From contig CAJQJL010000048.1 of NCBI GenBank assembly GCA_905478665.1, positions 1-64,000 on the forward strand: a stretch of 64,000 nt of DNA, read 5' to 3'. Source of the DNA: an uncultured Flavobacteriales bacterium (GTDB taxonomy: Bacteria; Bacteroidota; Bacteroidia; Flavobacteriales_D; Crocinitomicaceae). The notes under the pieces are model-generated. The model was given only the letters and a program-made list of their open reading frames with translations, had not been told where the DNA came from and searched no databases. The position numbers and the translations under genes were made by a program. Below are positions 5,350 to 42,009 of this stretch, piece after piece (within the stretch, counting starts at the first letter, position 1; the number at the start of each line of letters is the position of its first letter).

Positions 5350-6978
5350 ATGAAACACGGAAGAAAAATGATGGGCATCGGAATTGGAGCTGTTGCTCTT
5401 GCCGCTATGCTCGTATCCTTTACAGGAAACAATGACGATGAAAAGAAGAAGCGTTATCAGATCATTCATCAAGAAAATGGTGAAGTGGTTGAATACGACA
5501 CGCTAATTCCAATGAGTTCTATATATACCGTAAATGATTTTTTGGCTGATAAAGGAATTGATGCTGAAAATGTTGAGATCATTGATGTGCCTTCAATGGC
5601 TGGTCATAAAATGATGTTTGCTGAAGAGCACTCAAGGTTCATACAGGATATGGAGATGAATGGAGAGGGTGAAAACGTGATGATCACGATCGAAATGGAC
5701 GATGAAGGGAACATGACAACGAAGAAGGTTGTGAATGGTGAGGAAGTAGAAATGACCGAAGAGGAGTTGGAAGAATTGAAGATGCATAAAGAGGAGCATA
5801 TGCATGGGAAGCACGGTGAGCATATTATGATCAAAGAATTCAGTCATGACTTCGAAGTTGAAGTTGGTGAGGGTGAAGAAGTGAAGATCATTGTTGAAAT
5901 GGACGATGATGGAAACATGACCACAAAGAAGTTTGTTGATGGCGAGGAAGTAGAAATGACGGACGAGGAGTTGAAAGAGTTAAAAATGCACAATGAAGAG
6001 CATATGCTTGAACATGGAAAGCATGGAGAACATGTGATAATAAAAGAGTTTAGTCATGACTTCGAAGTTGAAGTTGATGGTGGTGAGGGTGAAGAAGTGA
6101 AGATCATTGTTGAAATGGACGATGATGGAAACATGACCACAAAGAAGTTTGTTGATGGCGAGGAAGTAGAAATGACGGACGAGGAGTTGAAAGAGTTAAA
6201 AATGCACAAGGAAGAGCATATGCTTGAACATGGAAAGCATGGAGAACATGTGATAATCAAAGAGTTTAGTCATGACGTTGAAGTCGATGGTGAGGGTGAA
6301 GAAGTGAAGATCATTGTTGAAATGGACGATGATGGAAACATGACTACGAAGAAATTTGTGAACGGAGAAGAGGTTGAAGTAACCGAAGAGGAGATGGAGA
6401 AAATGAAGATTCACAAAGAAATGTCAGGTGACCATATGATGATTCGAATTGACAGTGAAGAATTGGGAGAAGAAGAGCTTGAGAAAGTCATGAAGGAATT
6501 GAAAATTGAGCTGAAGGATCTTGAAGGAGAGATGGAAGAAATGCAAATTGAGATTAACGAAATTTTCGGTGAAGGAGAGAATGTTTTCATTATCAAAAAT
6601 GGAGATCATCAATCGTGGACTTCAAAAGGAGAAGGAGAAGATTTTACGCTAGTTATCGTAACAAAAGACATTGACCCATCAGAGATCAGTAAGCGTTCTG
6701 ACGTAAAAGTTGATCATGTGGTGGAGTCGAAAGAAGTTTCTATCTATCCAAATCCAAGCGATGGGGTATTTACGATTCAGTTGAACCAAACAGAGAAAGT
6801 GAAGACCTTGATAAAAATTTCGGATGCTCAAGGAAAACTTGTCTTCAAGGATAATTTAGGAAAGTTCTCGGGTGAGTACCGCGAAGAAGTGGACTTGAAG
6901 AAATATGGAGCGGGCACCTATATCATTAACATAGAACAGGGAGACAAAGTCATCACTGAGAAGGTTGTTGTTAAATAA
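5350..6978 (+). CDS. Acidic internally repeated secreted protein with C-terminal T9SS type A sorting domain
   Basis: Repeats of IIVEMDDDGNMTTKKFVDGEEVEMTDEELKELKMH..EHMLEHGKHGEHVIIKEFSHD; C-terminus SIYPNPSDGVFTIQL...GTYIINIEQGDKVITEKVVVK. Confidence 0.85.
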   Translation: MKHGRKMMGIGIGAVALAAMLVSFTGNNDDEKKKRYQIIHQENGEVVEYDTLIPMSSIYTVNDFLADKGIDAENVEIIDVPSMAGHKMMFAEEHSRFIQDMEMNGEGENVMITIEMDDEGNMTTKKVVNGEEVEMTEEELEELKMHKEEHMHGKHGEHIMIKEFSHDFEVEVGEGEEVKIIVEMDDDGNMTTKKFVDGEEVEMTDEELKELKMHNEEHMLEHGKHGEHVIIKEFSHDFEVEVDGGEGEEVKIIVEMDDDGNMTTKKFVDGEEVEMTDEELKELKMHKEEHMLEHGKHGEHVIIKEFSHDVEVDGEGEEVKIIVEMDDDGNMTTKKFVNGEEVEVTEEEMEKMKIHKEMSGDHMMIRIDSEELGEEELEKVMKELKIELKDLEGEMEEMQIEINEIFGEGENVFIIKNGDHQSWTSKGEGEDFTLVIVTKDIDPSEISKRSDVKVDHVVESKEVSIYPNPSDGVFTIQLNQTEKVKTLIKISDAQGKLVFKDNLGKFSGEYREEVDLKKYGAGTYIINIEQGDKVITEKVVVK

Positions 6979-7070
6979 GTTAGGTTAGGATAACACTTAT
7001 TAAATGCAGTAAGTTTTGTTCTTTTTCATAAAAGGGCGCAAGCGTTCTTAAGTTTTAGTAGCAGTAATGC

Positions 7071-7104
7071 AAAAAACCGATGTCAGTAATGGCATCGGTT
7101 TTTG
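7071..7104 (+). terminator. Intrinsic terminator
   Basis: aaaaccgatg-tcagtaatgg-catcggttttt hairpin. Confidence 0.7.
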
Positions 7105-7214
7105 ATTGTTCAAAGAAGTGGTTTGATAATCAGTATACCTTTTATATGTCTAAAACATATCTTTTATATATCTTGAGGCGGCAAATTGATTAACCAACTT
7201 AAAATTAACCAAAA

Positions 7215-7838
7215 ATGAAGAAATTTTTATTAGCTATCCCAATGGCAGCGATGTTTTTAGCGTCATGTGGATCGAATGACACTGCGCTAGAAGAGAATCT
7301 TGATGACATAGAGTCCTTTGATGCTGCTGTAAACAGTTTTGCAGATGGAAACGCAAAAGATCCACTAGGATATTTTAATGGCCTTTTGGCAGAAGTAATT
7401 GAAGTAGATGTTAAATTCCACGAGGTAGACCGTCTTGATGAAATGAATGCTTCTGTAGAAGAAATCAACAATACATTGGATTCTTGTCTAGAGCGTATGA
7501 GTCAAGCCAGAGTTGCATTGGAATTATACAGAGGTAAAAATTGGCCACGACGTGCAGAATTTCACGATTTAACGCTAGAATGGTTTGATGTTGTAGAGGA
7601 GATCGTTACTGATTACCTTCGTCCACTTGCAACTGCAATGTCGAAGCCAGATGAGGATTTAACGGATGAAGACTATGATCTTTACGAAGAATATGGCTAC
7701 GCAAACGAAGACTATGTAGAGGTTGATGGACGTTGGGTTGCATTCCAACACACATTTGCAGATGCAAATGATTTCAAACTAGGTACCAATACAGTTGATG
7801 TTGAAGCATTAATTGAAGAGGAGCTAGCAAGCGAATAG
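7215..7838 (+). CDS. Hypothetical lipoprotein
   Basis: Lipobox MFLASCGSND; about 200 aa. Confidence 0.8.
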   Translation: MKKFLLAIPMAAMFLASCGSNDTALEENLDDIESFDAAVNSFADGNAKDPLGYFNGLLAEVIEVDVKFHEVDRLDEMNASVEEINNTLDSCLERMSQARVALELYRGKNWPRRAEFHDLTLEWFDVVEEIVTDYLRPLATAMSKPDEDLTDEDYDLYEEYGYANEDYVEVDGRWVAFQHTFADANDFKLGTNTVDVEALIEEELASE

Positions 7839-7862
7839 TCTCTTTAAAAAATACACATATTT

Positions 7863-7893
7863 AAAACCGATGCTTTTAAAGTATCGGGTTTTT
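7863..7893 (+). terminator. Intrinsic terminator
   Basis: aaaaccgat...atcgggtttttt hairpin after the lipoprotein gene. Confidence 0.6.
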
Positions 7894-7898
7894 TATGG

Positions 7899-9065
7899 CT
7901 AAAATTCCAGGTTTTCACTGTCCACCATTGTCACCCATTTTTTCATTTTCTTTTGTATGACTCTGAAATGATTCTTATCTTCTGGAGTGATAAGTGAAAT
8001 AGCCTCTCCGGGAGACTCAGCACGTCCAGTTCGTCCTATTCGGTGGATGTAATCTTTCGGTGATCTGGGTAGCTCATAATTGATCACGTGTGGAAGGAAT
8101 TCAATGTCTATACCACGTGCTAGAAGATCAGTTGCAACTAACACGCGTAGCGCACCCGATATGAAATCTTCCAAAGCTTTGCGACGTGCACCTTGACTTT
8201 TTTTACTGTGAATCGCTGTGGCATCAATTCCGTTTTTCCGCAGTTTATCAGCAACATTGTCGGCCTTGTATGTCGAAGATGTAAACACCAATACTTGCTG
8301 TAGCTCGTTATGTTGGATGAGGTATCGCAACAAGGGCCCTTTTTTCTCCTCAGCCACAAAATAGCCAAGCTGCTTAATTAGATCAAGGTTTTCACTTTTT
8401 GCCTCTATTTTAATCACTACGGGCTCATGCAATACTAACTGCGTTATTGCATCGATATCTTCACTCAATGTAGCCGAAAACAGCAGGTTTTGTCTTCGTT
8501 TAGGTAATAGTGATAAAATACGATTCACTTCTTCCTTAAACCCAAGATTCAGCATTTTGTCAGCTTCGTCCAAAACCAAGGTGCGCACCGCTGATAAATG
8601 TACCGCCTTTGCATCGACCAATTCCAACAAACGTCCAGGAGTGGCCACCAATACATTCACGTTTTGAAGGTTAATCATTTGCGGGTTGATTGATACACCA
8701 CCGTAAACAGGCAAGACCTTTATTTTTTCTTGCAGGTACGAAGTGAACAATTGGAACACTTCTCCTACCTGCATGGCAAGTTCTCGGGTCGGAACCAATA
8801 CCAAAACGTTGACGTGTCTGTTTTTTGTCTCAGTGTTTCCTTCAAGGTTTGAGAGGATGGGTAAGACATAACTCGCTGTCTTTCCGGAGCCTGTTTGTGC
8901 AATTCCGAGCACATCCGACTTTTCTAAAATCGCTGGAATTGCCTTTTGTTGAATTGGGTACGGCTCTTTGTAATTTTGATCCGTCAGTGCCCTAAGCAGA
9001 GATGCGGAAATTCCGAGTTCATTAAATGAAATATTGGTGGGTAAATTATCGGTCAAGGGATTCAA
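7899..9065 (-). CDS. DEAD-box RNA helicase (RhlE-like)
   Basis: AQTGSGKT, PTRELA, DEAD, SAT, ARGIDIE, HRIGRTGRA motifs. Confidence 0.95.
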   Translation of the reverse strand: MNPLTDNLPTNISFNELGISASLLRALTDQNYKEPYPIQQKAIPAILEKSDVLGIAQTGSGKTASYVLPILSNLEGNTETKNRHVNVLVLVPTRELAMQVGEVFQLFTSYLQEKIKVLPVYGGVSINPQMINLQNVNVLVATPGRLLELVDAKAVHLSAVRTLVLDEADKMLNLGFKEEVNRILSLLPKRRQNLLFSATLSEDIDAITQLVLHEPVVIKIEAKSENLDLIKQLGYFVAEEKKGPLLRYLIQHNELQQVLVFTSSTYKADNVADKLRKNGIDATAIHSKKSQGARRKALEDFISGALRVLVATDLLARGIDIEFLPHVINYELPRSPKDYIHRIGRTGRAESPGEAISLITPEDKNHFRVIQKKMKKWVTMVDSENLEF

Positions 9066-9411
9066 TTGTATTTAACTCCTGAAGTAAATCTTCGAAGAGA
9101 ATGGGTTTGTTGAGAACTACAGAATTGTCAATATCAAGTGTTTGTCGAAGCATATCTTTTTTAGTGTTCGCAGTTGTGAAAATAACAGGAATAGTTGGAT
9201 TATGTTTCCTCAATTTTTTTGCAAGCTTAACTCCATTCTCCTTAGCTTTTAGTTGAATATCTAATAAGATGACATCAGGGTCTGATTCCATGAATTTCCA
9301 AAATGTAGATTCGTTTGGTGAAATACCTATCACTTTATGACCATAAGCTTCTAGATTTATTTTCATGGACATTGCCACGAGCATTTCATCTTCAACGATT
9401 AAAATTCTCAC
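9046..9411 (-). CDS. Stand-alone response-regulator receiver domain
   Basis: RILIVEDEMLVAMSMK, DVILLDIQLK, FTTANTKKDM, LNKPI; no output domain. Confidence 0.9.
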   Translation of the reverse strand: MRILIVEDEMLVAMSMKINLEAYGHKVIGISPNESTFWKFMESDPDVILLDIQLKAKENGVKLAKKLRKHNPTIPVIFTTANTKKDMLRQTLDIDNSVVLNKPILFEDLLQELNTIESLDR

Positions 9412-9763: not shown

Positions 9764-10018
9764 TTATGATTTAACCCGCTGCCAGTTCGATTTTATTTTT
9801 GAAATTTTCTTTTCATTTCTAAGATCTTTGTTCGAAATGTATTCTTCAAAGTAGCCACACTCCAAACACGTGTATACTTCTATAAATAATCTGGTACTAA
9901 TGGAACCTCCAGGTCCAGCCATAACTGCTCGTTCTCCTCTTGGGCCTTCAGGACGATTACTATAAACTTCTTCGCTAGTGCACTTTGTGCATTTACCTGT
10001 TAATTTCATGATTAACAC
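9764..10018 (-). CDS. Small zinc-ribbon-like protein
   Basis: CTKC...CLEC pair. Confidence 0.6.
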   Translation of the reverse strand: MLIMKLTGKCTKCTSEEVYSNRPEGPRGERAVMAGPGGSISTRLFIEVYTCLECGYFEEYISNKDLRNEKKISKIKSNWQRVKS

Positions 10019-28572: not shown

Positions 28573-28704
28573 CTAAGAATGCTTATCATCTCTTTTCTCC
28601 GTTCCATTTTTCTTTTTGATTTGTATCATTAGAAACAGCAATGCTAAAGTCAACATGACCATAGTAATAGTTCCATAGATTATAAGCGTATCCTTCCCTT
28701 CCAT
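28573..28704 (-). CDS. 43-aa single-TM microprotein (copy A)
   Basis: MEGKDTLIIYGTITMVMLTLALLFLMIQIKKKNGTEKRDDKHS; overlaps the 3' end of 28680..29309 by 25 nt; paralogous copy at 29311..29421. Confidence 0.6.
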   Translation of the reverse strand: MEGKDTLIIYGTITMVMLTLALLFLMIQIKKKNGTEKRDDKHS

Positions 28705-29309
28705 AATACAACAGTATATGTAATATTCAGAAAAATATTGAAAATTCCATGTATGATCCAGTAAGAAGTTTTATCACCGTTTAGAAGTTCTTTGCTAAAA
28801 ACAAAGAGATACATCGTTCCACCAAAGTAAATTAGGAATCCACCTGTTAATATGAAAAAGGGATTTTGAAAAAAGTTGACATTTCTATCTTCATGAATTA
28901 ATTTGTAGCAGTAGATCACAAGTATTATTGCAAGCCCTATTAATTCAACGTGCCTTTGAATGGAATTAAATTCTGTTATTTTTTCGAGAAATAAAATGTT
29001 GACTATCGAAAAAGTTCCAAAGAGAACACTTAGAGTTAAAATAAGTTTTCTCCAATGTGGGTTCGTAGAGACTTGATAATAAATTAGTGCAATGAATCCG
29101 AACTCAATAAACGAGTATAAATGAAAGATGAACATATTGTTGATCCCATATTCGAAAAGTACTCTCGCAGCGACCTCGATCAACAGAGTTAATCCAACTA
29201 AAATGGATAACACCCGAACAGAACGAATAAGTTTGGAATAAAAAATAGCTCCAACTAAGGCAGGAACCAATATTGAGATCATTGAAACGAACGTTATTGT
29301 TTGTACCAA
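28680..29309 (-). CDS. 7-TM hypothetical membrane protein (copy A)
   Basis: About seven hydrophobic segments; apparent TTG start or nearby ATG; paralog of 29397..30026. Confidence 0.8.
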   Translation of the reverse strand: MVQTITFVSMISILVPALVGAIFYSKLIRSVRVLSILVGLTLLIEVAARVLFEYGINNMFIFHLYSFIEFGFIALIYYQVSTNPHWRKLILTLSVLFGTFSIVNILFLEKITEFNSIQRHVELIGLAIILVIYCYKLIHEDRNVNFFQNPFFILTGGFLIYFGGTMYLFVFSKELLNGDKTSYWIIHGIFNIFLNITYTVVLWKGRIRL

Positions 29310-29310
29310 A

Positions 29311-29421
29311 CTACTTATTTGAGTGATCTTTCTTGGATCGGATCATTAGAAATAGAATTACCAAAATCAGGACAACAATACTGATGATTCCATAGATTAT
29401 AAGCGTATCCTTCCCTTCCAT
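29311..29421 (-). CDS. 36-aa single-TM microprotein (copy B)
   Basis: MEGKDTLIIYGIISIVVLILVILFLMIRSKKDHSNK; overlaps the 3' end of 29397..30026; its TAG is immediately upstream of the copy A TTG start. Confidence 0.6.
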   Translation of the reverse strand: MEGKDTLIIYGIISIVVLILVILFLMIRSKKDHSNK

Positions 29422-30026
29422 ATTACAATGGTGTATGTAATATTCAGAAAAATATTGAAAATTCCATGTATGATCCAGTAAGAAGTTTTATCACCGTTTA
29501 GAAGTTCTTTGCTAAAAACAAAGAGGTACATCGTTCCGCCAAAGTAAATTAGGAATCCGCCTGTTAATATGAAAAAGGGATTTTGAAAAAAATTGGCATT
29601 TCTGTCTTCATGAATTAATTTGTAACAATAGATCACAAGTATGATTGCAATCCCTATCAATTCAACATGTCTTTGTATAGAGTTGAAATCCGTGATTTTT
29701 TCAAGAAAGAAGATGTTAAATACTGAAAATATGCCAAAGAGTATACCTAGCGTAATAATAAGTTTTCTCCAATATGGGTTAGTCGAGATTTGGTAATAAA
29801 TTAAGGCAATAAATCCAAATTCAATAAACGAGTACAAGTGAAAGATGAACATATTGTTCATTCCATATTCGAAGAGAACTCTTGCACCGATCTCGATCAA
29901 TAGAGTTAATCCAACTAAAATGGATAACACTCGAATAGAACGAATAAGTTTTGAATAAAAAATAGCCCCAACCAAGGTTGGAGCCAATATTGAGATCATC
30001 GAAATGAACGTTATTGTTTGTACCAA
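29397..30026 (-). CDS. 7-TM hypothetical membrane protein (copy B)
   Basis: About 21 substitutions in 209 aa relative to copy A. Confidence 0.8.
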   Translation of the reverse strand: MVQTITFISMISILAPTLVGAIFYSKLIRSIRVLSILVGLTLLIEIGARVLFEYGMNNMFIFHLYSFIEFGFIALIYYQISTNPYWRKLIITLGILFGIFSVFNIFFLEKITDFNSIQRHVELIGIAIILVIYCYKLIHEDRNANFFQNPFFILTGGFLIYFGGTMYLFVFSKELLNGDKTSYWIIHGIFNIFLNITYTIVIWKGRIRL

Positions 30027-30027
30027 A

Positions 30028-30336
30028 CTATTTATTTAACGGACTGTTCTTATCACAAAGATTTGGACAAGGAGAAGAAATGTCAACTACCAATTCGGTC
30101 ATATCATTCTCGTTGGCATCTGCACCTACCAACACTAGTTCTTTGTTTCCATCTGAGTCAATTCCGTAATATATTCGAATTCCCATGCATCCTTCTTGGT
30201 CAAGAAGGTCATTCAAAATGTCTTTGCCATAAAAATGGGCTTTTCTTTCGTTCGGGTTCAAGTCTCGATATTCAGCAGTCATATCTGCTCCTAATTCTAA
30301 TGTGATTTCGCCTCCTTCTGTTCCGTTAAATGCCAT
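30028..30336 (-). CDS. Small soluble conserved-looking hypothetical protein
   Basis: MAFNGTEGGEITLELGADMTAEYR...GCMGIRIYYGIDSDGNKELVLVGADANENDMTE...CPNLC; immediately upstream of the 7-TM pair. Confidence 0.8.
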   Translation of the reverse strand: MAFNGTEGGEITLELGADMTAEYRDLNPNERKAHFYGKDILNDLLDQEGCMGIRIYYGIDSDGNKELVLVGADANENDMTELVVDISSPCPNLCDKNSPLNK

Positions 30337-30431
30337 AGTTTTCTTTTTTTAGGTTATACCCTACAAGAAAGTAATTTTGCCTGAACAATCCAATCAACAT
30401 TCCAATGAATATCGAACAGCAAAGTTCATCG

Positions 30432-31445
30432 CTATTCCGAAATCATATCCAAACTTATTTCTCCACGATTTAAGGCTTCTACAATTAAACCTTCGATTGT
30501 TTTTGTATTCCATTCAGACTTTAATTTGGTAACTACCTGAAGAACAACATAGGTATTCGTTTTTTGCACGTCTGAAATTTGCTTGTATGAAAGAGATTCT
30601 GCTAACAACAATAGGATTGAGAGTTCAAATTGGGTAAGTGTTTTTATTGTTTGTTTAGGTCTAGGAAGTATTGTGATGATACCTAAGGCTAATGATTTTA
30701 TAATGAGATCACTAATAGTTCTGACTTCCAGTTTTTTCTTTGCTTTAGTCATGTATCGTTGAACAGTGAACAGTTGAACCCCAATTTGTTCGCTAATTTC
30801 AGTGTTTGACACACCAGAAAGTCGCAATTTTAGAACTTTACGTAATTGTTTGCTTAGCGTAAGCCCTGTGTAGTTGGGGTGAGAAAAGGATATTTTGTAA
30901 ACTGGATGGTATTTATTGCTTTTCACAAGTTTGAGTGATTTTTTAAATGCAGCCCACACTTGATCTTGATCATGTATATTTAAGTCTTCATTATAGCTTG
31001 CAAGTGATAAATAACCTTTTTGAACTGCTTTGAGTACCAAATCCACTTTGGAGTCAACCCCCCATTTTTCATTAACCTTTTGCCTATGTCCTTCGATGGT
31101 TCTTACGGTAAGTGAAAGCTCCCGTCCAATCTGTCTACTTGTTCTTCCATTCAACACTGCATGTATCACAACTACTTCGTTCAATGTGAGGTAATCAGAT
31201 TCACGGATGTAATCATATTCACTCTTAAATAACTCTATGCTCTCGCTCATAAAGCCGTATTTAAGGGCTTGAACGATCATTCCTATTGTAGTTTTGGATT
31301 TGAATTTTTTTAATAGGCATGTTCTAATTGATTGCACAGTTGCTTCACCAATCCCCATCTTCTTTTTAATCTCTGGAGTTTCAAAACCTCTTAGAATAAG
31401 ATTGAGAATTTCACTTTCTCTTGTTGTTATTTGCTCCATCATCAT
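30432..31445 (-). CDS. Protein with four tandem LuxR/GerE-like HTH domains
   Basis: Four approx. 80-aa blocks: TTRESEILNLILRGFETPEI..., LTLNEVVVIHAVLNGRTSRQI..., LSKQLRKVLKLRLSGVSNTEI..., LTQFELSILLLLAESLSYKQI... Confidence 0.8.
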   Translation of the reverse strand: MMMEQITTRESEILNLILRGFETPEIKKKMGIGEATVQSIRTCLLKKFKSKTTIGMIVQALKYGFMSESIELFKSEYDYIRESDYLTLNEVVVIHAVLNGRTSRQIGRELSLTVRTIEGHRQKVNEKWGVDSKVDLVLKAVQKGYLSLASYNEDLNIHDQDQVWAAFKKSLKLVKSNKYHPVYKISFSHPNYTGLTLSKQLRKVLKLRLSGVSNTEISEQIGVQLFTVQRYMTKAKKKLEVRTISDLIIKSLALGIITILPRPKQTIKTLTQFELSILLLLAESLSYKQISDVQKTNTYVVLQVVTKLKSEWNTKTIEGLIVEALNRGEISLDMISE

Positions 31446-31545
31446 TTATGCATTAAGATTCATATTCCACATACATTTATGGCTTACAAATTCAGACTGT
31501 AACTACAATGGTGACAAAAGATTTACACTCCTCCAATTATTTGGC

Positions 31546-31583
31546 GTACGCTAAAGTGAATATGAAAAGTACACTAAAGTGTA
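31546..31583. promoter_or_regulatory. Two direct repeats GTACRCTAAAGTG upstream of the multi-HTH gene
   Basis: gtacgctaaagtgaa (31546) and gtacactaaagtgta (31569), spacing 23 bp; the second is palindromic. Confidence 0.45.
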
Positions 31584-31632
31584 GTGCGGTTAATAGGATT
31601 TTAATCAGTACGTTAGGCTTGAAGGAGAGGGG

Positions 31633-32505
31633 CTAGGTGGTAAACTTGATAATGAATCCATGCCGATTATCACTGTTTGTTTTACCGAAAATATTCGACG
31701 CATGTTTGTTAACAGTACTCAGCTTAATGCCCGAATTGTCAGCTATGGTCTGATAGGAATCTCCGCGTAAGATCTGCAAAGCCACTTTCATTTCTTTCTC
31801 AGAGAGACCATGTTTTTTTAGTCGTTCTGAGACATCTACAAATCTATCCAAAAGTGTAATTTTCTCGATAAGAACGAAATCACTTTTTGGCTTATTGATC
31901 GTTCCAAATGTATAATCATGAAGGGCAATCAAAAAGAAAATATTCACGGTAGAAGTGTATAAGAGTCCACTGTTACCTATGATGAATGAAGTCGTTGAAA
32001 TAATAAGATATAGGAATGCCGAAAGTCCAGTGTAGAGAATGATTTTATTTCCTTTTCCAGATGTCCATTTTCCATAAACGGAGCCTATAGCTCCAAAACT
32101 AAAATAGGTTATCATCAGAACTGGGTAAAAGTTGGTAAGGCTCTCTTCTATTTTTACTGCATCACTAATCCACAGATTGAGACTTAATAAAGTCGTTACG
32201 ACAAAACTGGCAGAAATAACTAGTAGTTTCGTTGACCTAGTTCGAATATTTAATATTTGACTACAAATGAAATAGAAGTAATAGGATGTAAGCGCAACTC
32301 CAATCAATTGGGTGAGAACCACATTAATGCTTTGACTTAATCCAATGGAAAGATTATACAGAACAAACAGGAAAGTAAGGATAGCGTACTTCAGTAATTT
32401 TGTATCACGAGCTTTAAGGAAATAACGCAGAACCTGTGAGATGCCAACAAGAAATTGTATTCCTGCCATTACAATTGCAGATATTGTTAGATCAATTCCG
32501 TTCAT
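31633..32505 (-). CDS. Multi-TM protein with C-terminal LuxR-type HTH
   Basis: About seven hydrophobic segments, then GLSEKEMKVALQILRGDSYQTIADNSGIKLSTVNKHASNIFGK. Confidence 0.85.
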   Translation of the reverse strand: MNGIDLTISAIVMAGIQFLVGISQVLRYFLKARDTKLLKYAILTFLFVLYNLSIGLSQSINVVLTQLIGVALTSYYFYFICSQILNIRTRSTKLLVISASFVVTTLLSLNLWISDAVKIEESLTNFYPVLMITYFSFGAIGSVYGKWTSGKGNKIILYTGLSAFLYLIISTTSFIIGNSGLLYTSTVNIFFLIALHDYTFGTINKPKSDFVLIEKITLLDRFVDVSERLKKHGLSEKEMKVALQILRGDSYQTIADNSGIKLSTVNKHASNIFGKTNSDNRHGFIIKFTT

Positions 32506-32706: not shown

Positions 32707-32895
32707 TTCATTAATTAACTGCCCACCTTTAGATGGTCACCTATCATTCAAACCCATACAGTTCGGAGGTTCATTCACTAACCGCCCACCTTTTGGTGGG
32801 CGGTTAGCAGTAAAACACTAGCAATTCAAGGGTTCATTCATTAACTGCCCATCAAAAGGTGGGCAGTTAGCAACCAAACCCCGTTGAAATTCTAT
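32707..32895. repeat. 63-bp tandem repeat x3, each unit with a hairpin
   Basis: TTCATT starts at 32707, 32770 and 32833; CTAACCGCCCACC-TTTT-GGTGGGCGGTTAG at 32778-32807 and TAACTGCCCATC-AAAA-GGTGGGCAGTTA at 32842-32869. Confidence 0.9.
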
Positions 32896-33198: not shown

Positions 33199-34542
33199 TT
33201 AGCCGTCTTTTCGTTTACTTCTTCCCTCATAGGATACTTTCCCGACAGCAGAGATTCTAAAGCCATGTCTTTTTACCTTTGCGTCCCTTTTAGGGGTAAA
33301 AACTAAACCTTGTCTATGTTTATTGATCCAATCAATATCACGCTGTTGAACCCCAACTTTAACATGAGCTTGAACTAGGCTAACGTTTCCAACTTCAAAA
33401 TCAGGAATTTCATCGTTTATGCGGTCTTTCCAATCTAGGGGTTTATCTATCATGTTGTGCGCCCCAATTGACTGATTTTTTTTAGACTCAGGACTTGGTA
33501 TCTCATTGTCAATTTGTTCCTCCTGCCGTTCAAAGACAATACGCTTAAATTCTTCTTGCTGTATACGCTCTCTTTGTTCAATTTCAATTCTTTGTCGTTC
33601 TTCCTGTTCTTCAATTTTTCGCTCAATTTGAGTTTGTTTATTTACCACGCCAGAAATGATTTCATTCAGATCTTCTAATTTTAATTTTTCGTCAGCAGTT
33701 TCGGGTTCAATTGGCACAAATTCTTGGTCGTCGGATTGATTTAATCCCATTATTCTTAGGTAGATGCCATCTTGTGAGTTTGGATCATCTTGCCAAGTGA
33801 ATTCGTGCTTATATTGGATGAGACTTCTGAGCCAATCAGACAATAGGCGGTTTTGAATTTTTTGCTCTTCAATATCAACCAATTCCCGTTTATAATTGTC
33901 TTTTTTATGGTAGACCCTTCGGTAGCCGTCACGATTATTAAAAACTAAAGGCTCCACTGTCATCTTGATTAGATTAAGACGAAGTGCTATCATTGTTTCC
34001 TCTCTGTAAGTTGCTCCCTCTTCAATATGGTGTATTAAGTGCAGAATACTTTGTTTTTTGTCATTATGGATGGATTTTACTTGAACTACTCCATGATAGC
34101 CAATTAGGTTTGAAAGACCTTCAATGATTTTATCATCGAGAATGCGCTGTTCTAAGTCTGGAATTAATGTTGTCAGTAGTCCATAGTTTTTCTGATAGAC
34201 ATTTTGTCTAGGTCTAGCTTTCTTACTTTGAGGCTTAAATTTTGGTTTTACCAATTCCGCTTGAATCGGAACTGATTTTATTTCATCAGGTTTACTTCTC
34301 CACCATTGATTCGGGTTTGAACGAACGCGATCAATGTATTCATCAGCGGTTTTGTTTTCCAAAAGCTGAATTGCTTTTGCACGTGATGGATACCAAGTGT
34401 TCTTTTGATTTGAATTTTGTTCGTCACCATATTCGTACAGGCGAATTAATGATGCTAGTTTTGACCAATTACTTTTTAGCTCTTCATTTGAGAGCGTTAA
34501 GATTTCTTCTAATGTGTAATCACTTTTTTTTCGTTTTGCCAT
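33199..34542 (-). CDS. Hypothetical protein, possibly DUF6908-like middle domain, coiled coil and basic C-terminus
   Basis: 447 aa; GLLTTLIPDLEQ...ILHLIHHIEEG...EPLVFNNRDGYRRVY...LLSDWLRSLI; Glu/Arg-rich coiled coil. Confidence 0.7.
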   Translation of the reverse strand: MAKRKKSDYTLEEILTLSNEELKSNWSKLASLIRLYEYGDEQNSNQKNTWYPSRAKAIQLLENKTADEYIDRVRSNPNQWWRSKPDEIKSVPIQAELVKPKFKPQSKKARPRQNVYQKNYGLLTTLIPDLEQRILDDKIIEGLSNLIGYHGVVQVKSIHNDKKQSILHLIHHIEEGATYREETMIALRLNLIKMTVEPLVFNNRDGYRRVYHKKDNYKRELVDIEEQKIQNRLLSDWLRSLIQYKHEFTWQDDPNSQDGIYLRIMGLNQSDDQEFVPIEPETADEKLKLEDLNEIISGVVNKQTQIERKIEEQEERQRIEIEQRERIQQEEFKRIVFERQEEQIDNEIPSPESKKNQSIGAHNMIDKPLDWKDRINDEIPDFEVGNVSLVQAHVKVGVQQRDIDWINKHRQGLVFTPKRDAKVKRHGFRISAVGKVSYEGRSKRKDG

Positions 34543-34743
34543 TGTGTAACATTTAAGTTAATAACCAATGGATCGCAAAACTGGCAGCGAAAACTGCCAA
34601 AGAGAATATTAAACTATTTCGGATAGTTACTTAATGTAACGTTCAAATTAGTGTGTTTGTTACATCTTGTTGAATTAATATTCAATGAGTTGAGTGGAAT
34701 TGGTTCGCGCACCGACCCAAATAGATTGACAAAAAAATGTGTC

Positions 34744-34920
34744 GAGTCGGATTTTAAAGTCTGTCGAGTCGGATCAATCTTTTCGACGATAAAAATAGTC
34801 GCTTTATCGAATATTAGCTCGACTCGGCTCCGAGTCGATACCGAGTCGGTCTTGAGTCGAAATCCGAGTCGGATTCGAGTCGGATTCGAGTCAAATAAAA
34901 ATGCCAAAAGAAATTGAGTC
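34744..34920. repeat. Array of ten GAGTC/GACTC sites, mostly CGAGTCGG, phased at about 11 bp
   Basis: Sites at 34744, 34766, 34821(inverted), 34832, 34843, 34854, 34866, 34877, 34888, 34916. Confidence 0.85.
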
Positions 34921-34981: not shown

Positions 34982-35075
34982 TTAACTGCCCACTTTAGCC
35001 TATTTATATAAGTCAATGGTAGCGATCGTTTCGTGAATTTTGCACACTAAAATTGAGCCAAAAGGGGCAGTTAAT
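34982..35075. repeat. Inverted-repeat arms related to the 63-bp hairpin repeat
   Basis: TTAACTGCCCACTTT near 34982 and AAAAGGGGCAGTTAA near 35060. Confidence 0.65.
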
Positions 35076-35284: not shown

Positions 35285-35428
35285 ATGTTATCAATTAAAG
35301 AGTGTAGGAAAGTACTCGGAAAGAAGTACAAAAACTATACTGATAAACAGATCAAAATGATTCGTGATTGGTTATATAAGATCACGGAAATGGAGCGAGG
35401 GAGATTAACGAATAACGAGAAGAAATGA
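35285..35428 (+). CDS. 47-aa ORF preceding the recombinase
   Basis: MLSIKECRKVLGKKYKNYTDKQIKMIRDWLYKITEMERGRLTNNEKK, 4-bp ATGA overlap with the recombinase. Confidence 0.65.
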   Translation: MLSIKECRKVLGKKYKNYTDKQIKMIRDWLYKITEMERGRLTNNEKK

Positions 35429-37212
35429 AAAGAGCAGTTTTATACATTCGAGTTAGTACAGATGAACAAGCAGATAGAGGATATAGTTTGGGAGTTCAAA
35501 AGGAACAACTTGAAAAGTACTGCGAAGCACAAGGAATAGAAATCGCAATTCTATTTAAGGAAGATCACAGCGCAAAAAACTTTGATCGACCAGAATTTGC
35601 GAAATTTCTATCCTATGCGAAAGCAAATCATAGAAGTATAGATTACTTCCTGTTTGTATCATGGGATAGATTTTCTAGGAATGCACCAGATGCGTACAAT
35701 ATGATACGAAAGATGAAAGCTTGGGATATTGAACCGCAAGCGATCACACAACCCATAGATTTTGATGTTCCACAAAGCAAAATCATGCTTTCCATTTATT
35801 TAACGCTTCCAGAAGTGGATAACGATATTCGTTCGGGTAAAGTGAAAATGGGGTTACGTGGAGCGAACAAATTGGGTAGATGGACTACAACTGCACCAAT
35901 TGGGTATAAGAATCGCAGGGATGAACAAAACAAACCTATCATTGTTCCAAAGGAAACAGCACCACATATCGAATGGGCTTTTAAGGAGGTGATAAAGAAC
36001 GAACGCTCACTAAATGAAATTCGCATTGAGTTAAATAGAAAAGGTGTAAAGATTTCGCGGAGTTCGTTTAGTAGAATGGTGCGTAATCCTGTTTACATGG
36101 GGAAGATTCGCGTAGCAGAATACAAGGATGAACCTGAACAGTTCGTAGATGGGTTGCATGAAGGAATTGTAAGCGAATCAGTTTTTAATGAAGTTCAACT
36201 AATATTAAGTGGTAGAGTAAAGAAGCAAAACAAAAATTCTTCATATAGAGATCGTGTTGAATTACCGCTTAGAGGAATCTTAAACTGTTCCAAGTGCGGT
36301 AATCACATAACAGGAAGTGCTTCAAAGAGTAGAACTGGAGATAAACATTACTACTATCATTGTATGCATTGCAAAAAAGAACGTTTCCGAGCAGATGTAG
36401 CAAACAAGGAAATGGAGGAACTATTGAGTATAATTCAGATCACAGAAGAAGTAGAAAAACTCCATGATGTAATATTGGATTCGGAATTAAAGGGAAATCC
36501 AAAACAACGCGCTCAACAGAAATCAACGTTTGTGCAGCAATTGAACAAACTCGAAGCAAGAAAGGAACAATTGCAAAACACATTCTTGGATGGAGATTTA
36601 GACCCCAAGGATTACACAGAACTAAAGAAGCGTTTAGAGAGTAAAATATTTGAAGTTAAAGCACAATTGGAGAGCATAAAACAAGGGAAATCGAAGTTTC
36701 AAGAGCAATTGAGCAAATCGTTTAAGATGCTACCAAATATCATTGAATGGTACAGAAACAGTACAGTTCAGGAGAAGAAAAAATTAATTGGTTCGATCTT
36801 TCCTGAAAAGTTCACATTTGAAAATAATAGAGTTCGAACCACTTCTATTGATGAAGTGATTGCGTTGATACTAAAGTATACTGGGAGGTTTGATGAAAAC
36901 AAAAAAGGGACAAATGAGAATAAATCTCATTTGTCCCATCTGGTACCTCGGGCGGGAATCGAACCCGCACGCCCGAAGGCACTGGATTTTGAATCCAGCG
37001 CGTCTACCAGTTCCGCCACCGAGGCATATTTTCTGATATGCGGATGCAAAGCTATGGATTTTATTGGATTTGGAAACAATGAAATTAATATTTCATCAAT
37101 TTTATTACATTTTTTTCTCCTGCAATCCGTACTTCCAGTGTATACATGCCCATTTCCAATTGATCAAGACCTTCTAATTGAACGATTTTCCCAGACCATT
37201 CATCAGCTCTGA
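35425..37212 (+). CDS. Serine recombinase (resolvase/recombinase/zinc-ribbon type); C-terminus reads through antisense tRNA-Leu
   Basis: AVLYIRVSTDEQADRGYSLGVQ, SWDRFSRN, CSKCGNHITG zinc ribbon; tail VPRAGIEPARPKALDFESSASTSSATEA is the tRNA complement. Confidence 0.9.
   Translation: MKRAVLYIRVSTDEQADRGYSLGVQKEQLEKYCEAQGIEIAILFKEDHSAKNFDRPEFAKFLSYAKANHRSIDYFLFVSWDRFSRNAPDAYNMIRKMKAWDIEPQAITQPIDFDVPQSKIMLSIYLTLPEVDNDIRSGKVKMGLRGANKLGRWTTTAPIGYKNRRDEQNKPIIVPKETAPHIEWAFKEVIKNERSLNEIRIELNRKGVKISRSSFSRMVRNPVYMGKIRVAEYKDEPEQFVDGLHEGIVSESVFNEVQLILSGRVKKQNKNSSYRDRVELPLRGILNCSKCGNHITGSASKSRTGDKHYYYHCMHCKKERFRADVANKEMEELLSIIQITEEVEKLHDVILDSELKGNPKQRAQQKSTFVQQLNKLEARKEQLQNTFLDGDLDPKDYTELKKRLESKIFEVKAQLESIKQGKSKFQEQLSKSFKMLPNIIEWYRNSTVQEKKKLIGSIFPEKFTFENNRVRTTSIDEVIALILKYTGRFDENKKGTNENKSHLSHLVPRAGIEPARPKALDFESSASTSSATEAYFLICGCKAMDFIGFGNNEINISSILLHFFLLQSVLPVYTCPFPIDQDLLIERFSQTIHQL
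36907..36937 (-). terminator. tRNA-Leu intrinsic terminator
   Basis: 13-bp perfect stem GGGACAAATGAGA/TCTCATTTGTCCC followed on the minus strand by T6. Confidence 0.85.
36941..37025 (-). tRNA. tRNA-Leu (anticodon CAA), CCA encoded
   Basis: GCCTCGG...CTGGATTCAAAATCCAG...GGGTTCGATTCCCGCCCGAGGTACCA. Confidence 0.95.
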
Positions 37213-41772: not shown

Positions 41773-41835
41773 TTGATCTTAGGCTTAAGTTGTTGGATCG
41801 CTTCACTATTGGATGGTGAATTAATTTTCGAACTT

Positions 41836-41910
41836 CCAATATCCAATATCCAATATCCAATATCCAATATCCAATATCCAATATCCAATATCCAATATCC
41901 AACATCCAAT
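41836..41910. repeat. Heptanucleotide tandem repeat (CCAATAT)n
   Basis: About ten 7-bp units. Confidence 0.95.
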
Positions 41911-42009
41911 ACTACTCTTTCAACCGCAAATTTCAACATTATCTAGCGATTAATCATGTAAAAACGTATTTTTGAGACCACTAAGTAGCACCAAAGGTAA
42001 AACGCTTGT

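Follow-up and report, generated by a model that had tools for sequence, protein, structure and literature searches.

At the conjugation origins of F-like systems, the TraM-sbm sites consist of GANTC-containing words about one helical turn apart, and the iterons of plasmid replication origins are usually spaced by more than 11 bp. For R388, the stbDRs were shown to comprise ten 9-bp repeats in two groups of five, with 2 nt between neighbouring repeats; StbA binds them, and they are required for stability (PMC3098194). For R1, ParR was shown to require two or more 11-bp repeats; in other ParR families, each protein is specific to its cognate parC, and the repeats differ (PMC9426499). This paper describes an array of 11-bp period from an uncultured Flavobacteriales bacterium, located in a stretch of 64,000 nucleotides which is referred to as the window. 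Comparison of the locus with its relatives suggests that the array probably serves the product of the adjoining 447-aa gene as a docking site.

The array and the probable mobile element in the window

The array extends from 34744 to 34920, without assigned strand, and contains ten GAGTC/GACTC sites, mostly in the context CGAGTCGG, at positions 34744, 34766, 34821 (GACTC), 34832, 34843, 34854, 34866, 34877, 34888 and 34916. An exact recount agreed with the sites and the successive spacings of 22, 55, 11, 11, 11, 12, 11, 11 and 28 bp listed in a preliminary description of this DNA. Seven of the nine spacings are exact multiples of 11 bp, and at least seven were reached in 0 of 200,000 random placements of ten sites over the same span; eight are within 1 bp of such a multiple (P = 1e-4 by random placement, same span). 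Among the periods printed, phase concentration peaks at 11.0 bp, with P = 0.004 for the maximum over 10-12 bp. No other 176-bp piece of the window comes near the site density of the array. Octamers with at most one mismatch to CGAGTCGG number 11 in 240 bp at the array versus 0.04 expected per 240 bp from the rest of the window, and 5-mer matches at lags 11 and 22 number 35, whereas none of about 650 other pieces of the window exceeds 18. Of the copies of GASTC-N6-GASTC in the 3.9-Mb assembly, five are in the array and a single one lies outside it. The array is the sole one of its kind in the genome, and its pattern is essentially unique.

The sites had been described as lying on one face of the DNA. 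Locally this holds, but across the array it is only approximate, because 11.0 bp per word is slightly more than one turn of relaxed B-DNA and because the last site, at 34916 with its spacing of 28, is out of register; the 67 bp from 34821 to 34888 correspond to about 6.4 turns at 10.5 bp. The absence of a convincing open reading frame was confirmed, since both ORFs overlapping the array, of 102 aa on the minus strand and 88 aa on the plus strand, start with TTG or GTG and are themselves unconvincing.

In the window, the array is preceded by the 447-aa gene (33199-34542, minus strand), which points away from it, and is followed by a 47-aa ORF (35285-35428, plus strand), a large serine recombinase (35425-36940, plus strand) and tRNA-Leu(CAA) (36941-37025, minus strand). 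The 47-aa ORF overlaps the start of the recombinase gene and gave no match in a Pfam scan; comparable small ORFs precede the recombinase in the loci L021, L022, L059 and L064. The recombinase was identified by matches to the Resolvase, Recombinase and zinc-ribbon domains, and its open frame runs on through the tRNA to 37212. It abuts the tRNA gene, the feature that defines serine-recombinase elements integrating into tRNA or tmRNA genes, and its relatives likewise adjoin tRNA-Phe, tRNA-Lys, tRNA-Leu(GAG), tRNA-Ser or tmRNA. In the congeneric genome G150, the orthologous tRNA-Leu lies by the same CotH-like gene and the recombinase is absent. On these grounds, the window most likely holds a small tRNA-integrated mobile element, with the tRNA as the presumed attachment site. 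A search to the left for a copy of the tRNA 3' end, which would mark a second attachment site, gave none, and the left end of the element was not located. The gene order past the tRNA in G150 differs from that of the window, and an empty site is not definable there.

A scan for defence families among the genes left of the array gave nothing convincing. At 28680-32505, the window shares with locus L063 (451-3698) a set of two LuxR-type HTH proteins, a 102-aa protein and a 209-aa membrane-type protein, the last being duplicated in the window (copies 89% identical). The L063 set adjoins another recombinase of the same family in genome G140, at tRNA-Ser. A AACTGCCCACC...GGTGGGCAGTTA-like repeat is present in three close copies at 32710-32870 and resembles the terminator-like repeats beside the L021-L023 arrays, and a tandem repeat of TCCAATA (7 bp, 11 copies, 97% match) lies at 41835-41911.

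The 447-aa protein, its relatives and their arrays

The 447-aa protein had no match in Pfam or NCBIfam. It consists of an N-terminal helical domain, an alpha/beta domain, a coiled coil and a conserved C-terminal tail. The alpha/beta domain aligns to the DUF6908/DUF1249 region of relatives, and identity to the L016 protein is about 36% over the N-terminal half, which includes this region; DUF6908 and DUF1249 are each matched by six of the eleven family proteins in Pfam. A fold model was of low confidence (pLDDT 56, pTM 0.35), a PDB fold search with it returned nothing below E = 0.058, and no DNA-binding fold was recognised by Pfam, the low-confidence model or the PDB. On its strand, the 447-aa gene is the last one before an unrelated 71-aa ORF, which has the opposite orientation.

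Among 240 genomes of the bacterial family, homologues were identified in six besides that of the window, and a profile search added two copies in G241, a genome from another family of the order. In total there are eleven loci including the window, with members mainly in Crocinitomicaceae. Named records with homologues are Fluviicola chungangensis (Crocinitomicaceae) and a chromosome labelled Glaciecola amylolytica THG-3.7. Homologues were absent from viral_contigs; a wider search gave one weak phage record, and plasmid matches cover the DUF1249-like domain alone, with uninformative neighbours. Type 1 proteins comprise L016-L020 and the window, type 2 proteins comprise L021-L023, and the G241 proteins stand apart. 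The L017, L018 and L020 proteins are 52-58% identical to each other, and type 2 proteins are 53-62% identical among themselves and 21-28% to type 1.

The relatives occur in virus-like elements of about 18 kb and in mini-elements of about 4 kb. The former are exemplified by G050:C1:3642115-3660471 (loci L091 and L016), with its recombinase at tRNA-Phe. Its first part codes for the serine recombinase, a patatin, DUF2272, a GH108 lysin, many proteins with a single membrane-helix-like segment and a conserved protein of about 240 aa, followed by the array, the family gene, a small membrane-type protein, a DnaA-C-like protein, a 310-aa protein and a HerA-like ATPase. Judged from its genes, this element is virus-like. 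The mini-element L022 consists of a 105-aa ORF, the array, the family gene, a small ORF and the recombinase, so that the smallest elements hold little beyond array, family gene and recombinase. The order in the window of tRNA, recombinase, array and family gene is that of G050 minus the middle and downstream genes.

With this gene content, the array might mark DNA for a membrane complex with the HerA-like ATPase, for packaging or membrane tethering, and the mini-elements would be satellites that keep the mark. The family gene, the small membrane-helix protein, the DnaA-C-like protein and the HerA-like ATPase cluster in L016, L017, L018, L020 and L057, genes for lysin, patatin and numerous small membrane-type proteins are close by, and the C-terminal tail of type 2 proteins resembles that of the separate small protein beside type 1. 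However, the window copy is without a membrane partner, and the idea that the protein of about 240 aa is a capsid found no support, its model being unusable (pLDDT 30) and no PDB fold or sequence matching. We consider a packaging or tethering role very unlikely.

A repeat array precedes the family gene in 11 of 11 loci by reading of the upstream regions, the window included. In the ten other loci, dense short repeats are found 170-820 bp before the start codon, three of them weak. The word tracks the subfamily of the protein: it is CGACTC in L017, CGACTC with GAGTTG in L018, CAACTT in L020 and GGTATCC-like in type 2 (L021-L023). L016 has GCGACTCG, L019 CCGACTA/CCGACC, L057 CCTAAA and L058 CATGCA within a 46-bp repeat. 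A repeat finder at fixed settings flagged the window and eight of the ten other family loci (L057 weakly) and missed the L020 and L021 arrays.

By lag analysis, the window, L016, L018 and L019 show lags of about 11 bp, L017 shows multiples of 11, and L022 and L023 show lags of 11, 22-23, 33 and 44 bp; the signal is weak in L020, L021 and L057, and the period of L058 is 46 bp. Conservation of the phasing, asked for in the preliminary description, is therefore found in the closest relatives, where it is strong, but is partial or absent in distant ones. Random spacing or loss of sites, named beforehand as speaking against a function, is absent in the closest relatives and present in part of the distant ones. 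The arrays of L016, L019 and L058 consist in part of long tandem duplications, as would be expected for a functionless, expanding simple repeat. This explanation is extremely improbable, as the word changes yet the spacing is kept, and as an array is present at every family locus and in a constant place before a conserved box.

This box, GTAACAA-N~13-CGTT, lies between array and gene in L016-L023. Within it, GTAACAAT is invariant across L016-L020 and again across L021-L023, in two alignments; the box of L058 is looser, and L057 keeps the CGTT part only. The window copy, GTAACAAACACACTAATTTGAACGTT, at 34638-34663 on the minus strand, is a putative promoter. It is followed by the leader of the 447-aa gene (34543-34637, minus strand), with a hairpin GGCAG-tttt-CGCTGCC at 34582-34599 and a fold z-score of -2.2. 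The leaders of relatives each fold into hairpins, with individually weak z-scores that range from -0.5 to -2.9 over the leaders. Those of L016 (7586-7866), L017 (7329-7608), L018 (6744-7018) and L020 (7085-7354) have one or two hairpins and differ in sequence, and in these four loci the family gene is preceded by an overlapping ORF of some 50 codons. An Rfam search of the leaders returned no RNA family; the leader of the relatives and the window may possibly be an unlisted regulatory RNA.

On the far side of the array, an inverted repeat TTAACTGCCC...GGGGCAGTTAA was identified at 34982-35074 (no strand assigned), in the same place as the AACTGCCC/GGGCAGTT terminator-like repeats past the L021-L023 arrays; L018 also has a terminator-like inverted repeat beyond its array. 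Typically, a locus runs from terminator through array, GTAACAA-N13-CGTT box and leader to gene. The distance from the end of the array to the conserved box is 45-80 bp; this position appears to be upstream-regulatory, and the layout fits an upstream regulatory or nucleoprotein site rather than coding DNA.

Candidate binders and possible functions

GAGTC is also a GANTC site, and sensing of methylation had been considered. This idea is unsupported, because the words of most relatives are not GANTC (CCGACTA, CAACTT, GGTATCC) and because a search with the methylase family PF01555 gave no match above the family cut-off in the 89%-complete genome. The array is thus not assigned as a methylation-sensing site, for which GANTC preserved in relatives and a methylase would be expected.

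That the family protein binds the array is suggested because the word tracks its subfamily and neither the host nor the recombinase. Two words are present in one host both in G049, with CAACTT and GGTATCC members, and in G241, with CCTAAA and CATGCA members, which makes a host factor an unlikely binder. The recombinase of the GACTC-type element of G050 (L091) is 66-69% identical to the recombinases of the GGTATCC elements and 57% to that of the window; the window has the word GACTC, as in the G050 element, despite only 57% identity of the recombinases. In L023, array and family gene are accompanied by a tyrosine-type integrase, identified by reading, and a serine recombinase is absent from the stretch read. 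The recombinase was rejected as binder, since the word is independent of recombinase relatedness and most recombinase loci are without an array: at the same finder settings, one array was identified in about thirteen recombinase upstream regions that lack the family gene.

This one array, in locus L064 of genome G012, consists of TGCATSA words with spacings of 11, 11, 9, 12, 11, 11 and 11 bp. Its neighbours are a recombinase, a small ORF and a 65-aa protein weakly similar to DUF4248, and no family gene was seen in the stretch read; the N-terminus of the family has no homology to the 65-aa protein. Because the L064 array occurs without the family gene, other proteins may read such arrays. For the window, a small HTH protein, the recombinase, the 47-aa companion or a host factor would be candidates. 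L064 is consistent with such a reader, and the two words per genome, the L023 locus and the lack of correspondence between word and recombinase relatedness argue against it; overall, it is quite unlikely. The L064 array lies at about 9886-9971, in an element at tRNA-Leu(GAG). At 6656-9133, the same locus contains a CBASS-type set with a DncV-like nucleotidyltransferase, a TIR-STING effector (both by Pfam) and another protein between them.

The preliminary description had proposed an iteron, centromere or cooperative operator array bound by the 447-aa protein. The arrays of relatives and the tracking of the protein family by the word favour this binder, and we infer that it is the family protein; the L064 array counts against it. 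Iteron, centromere and operator are not separated by the sequence.

We give about even chances to the reading that the array is a cis-acting site of the tRNA-integrated element, bound cooperatively by the family protein, with putative autoregulation and centromere-like handling. The array, placed ahead of the 447-aa gene's putative promoter, would act as a protein-binding site in cis, to which the 447-aa product would bind cooperatively, with one protein unit per word of about 11 bp. The resulting nucleoprotein complex would autoregulate the 447-aa gene and might serve as the element's own centromere-like handling site, keeping or positioning the excised circle. Counted in favour of the operator or centromere reading were the array at all family loci, the phasing in relatives, the drift of the word with the protein rather than with host or recombinase, the minimal elements, the position before the box and the precedent of the R388 and R1 arrays. 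Counted against it were the unrecognised fold, the absence of ParM, ParA and StbB, none of which were seen, the L064 array and the weak phasing in distant relatives.

The array might instead be a replication origin. Its words would then be short iterons and the family protein an initiator that escaped recognition, and the element, once excised, would be a plasmid-like replicon. The mini-elements with array, family gene and integrase would be a plausible minimal replicon, a DnaA-C-like protein is encoded two genes past the family gene in the large elements, and AT-rich DNA neighbours the window array. No replication initiator was matched in Pfam, however, the hydrophobic, membrane-helix-like stretch at the end of type 2 proteins would be odd in an initiator, and the spacing of 11 bp is below the iteron norm, so that we regard an origin as unlikely.

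On a wider scale, it is possible, though rather doubtful, that a DUF6908/DUF1249-type protein, drifting words phased at about 11 bp, an own promoter box and a structured leader form an undescribed DNA-recognition module. This would be the common core of virus-like elements and mini-elements of about 4 kb in Bacteroidota and would be the site for their maintenance, replication or packaging, and the mini-elements might be satellites. If so, the module would mark little-known virus-like and mini integrative elements in Flavobacteriales with a recognisable maintenance signature. If the family protein reads the array, the eleven natural protein-word pairs, drifting in step, would be a data set on the co-evolution of binder and repeat.

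Comparison to described systems

The iteron origins of plasmids also have directly repeated binding words next to a gene of the element. In contrast to these, the spacing is shorter here and a known initiator is absent, no recognisable replication initiator gene having been identified by Pfam and NCBIfam. The TraM-sbm sites are similar in their GANTC-type words at about helical-turn spacing; unlike there, relaxase and TraM were not found here.

The resemblance to type II partition by parC and ParR lies in the 11-bp repeats of R1 and in repeats that are cognate-specific and vary between binder families. In contrast to ParMRC, a Pfam scan of the neighbouring genes identified neither an actin-like ParM nor a ParR-like (RHH) protein. 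With stbDR and StbA of R388, the array shares the 11-bp period, the ten copies, the mobile element and the position upstream of the binder gene, which was shown there and is proposed here. However, the window sites are not arranged in two sets of five, and the word differs. StbA acts with StbB and StbC as partners on R388, whereas here the protein is of 447 aa without Pfam or NCBIfam match and the array lies on a chromosomal integrative element; a StbA homologue with StbBC was not found, as judged by Pfam and NCBIfam matches and neighbour genes. Because the partner proteins of both systems were not found, the array is filed neither under StbA nor under ParMRC. By analogy, it is best read as having the architecture of stbDR and parC, with an undescribed protein as its proposed binder.
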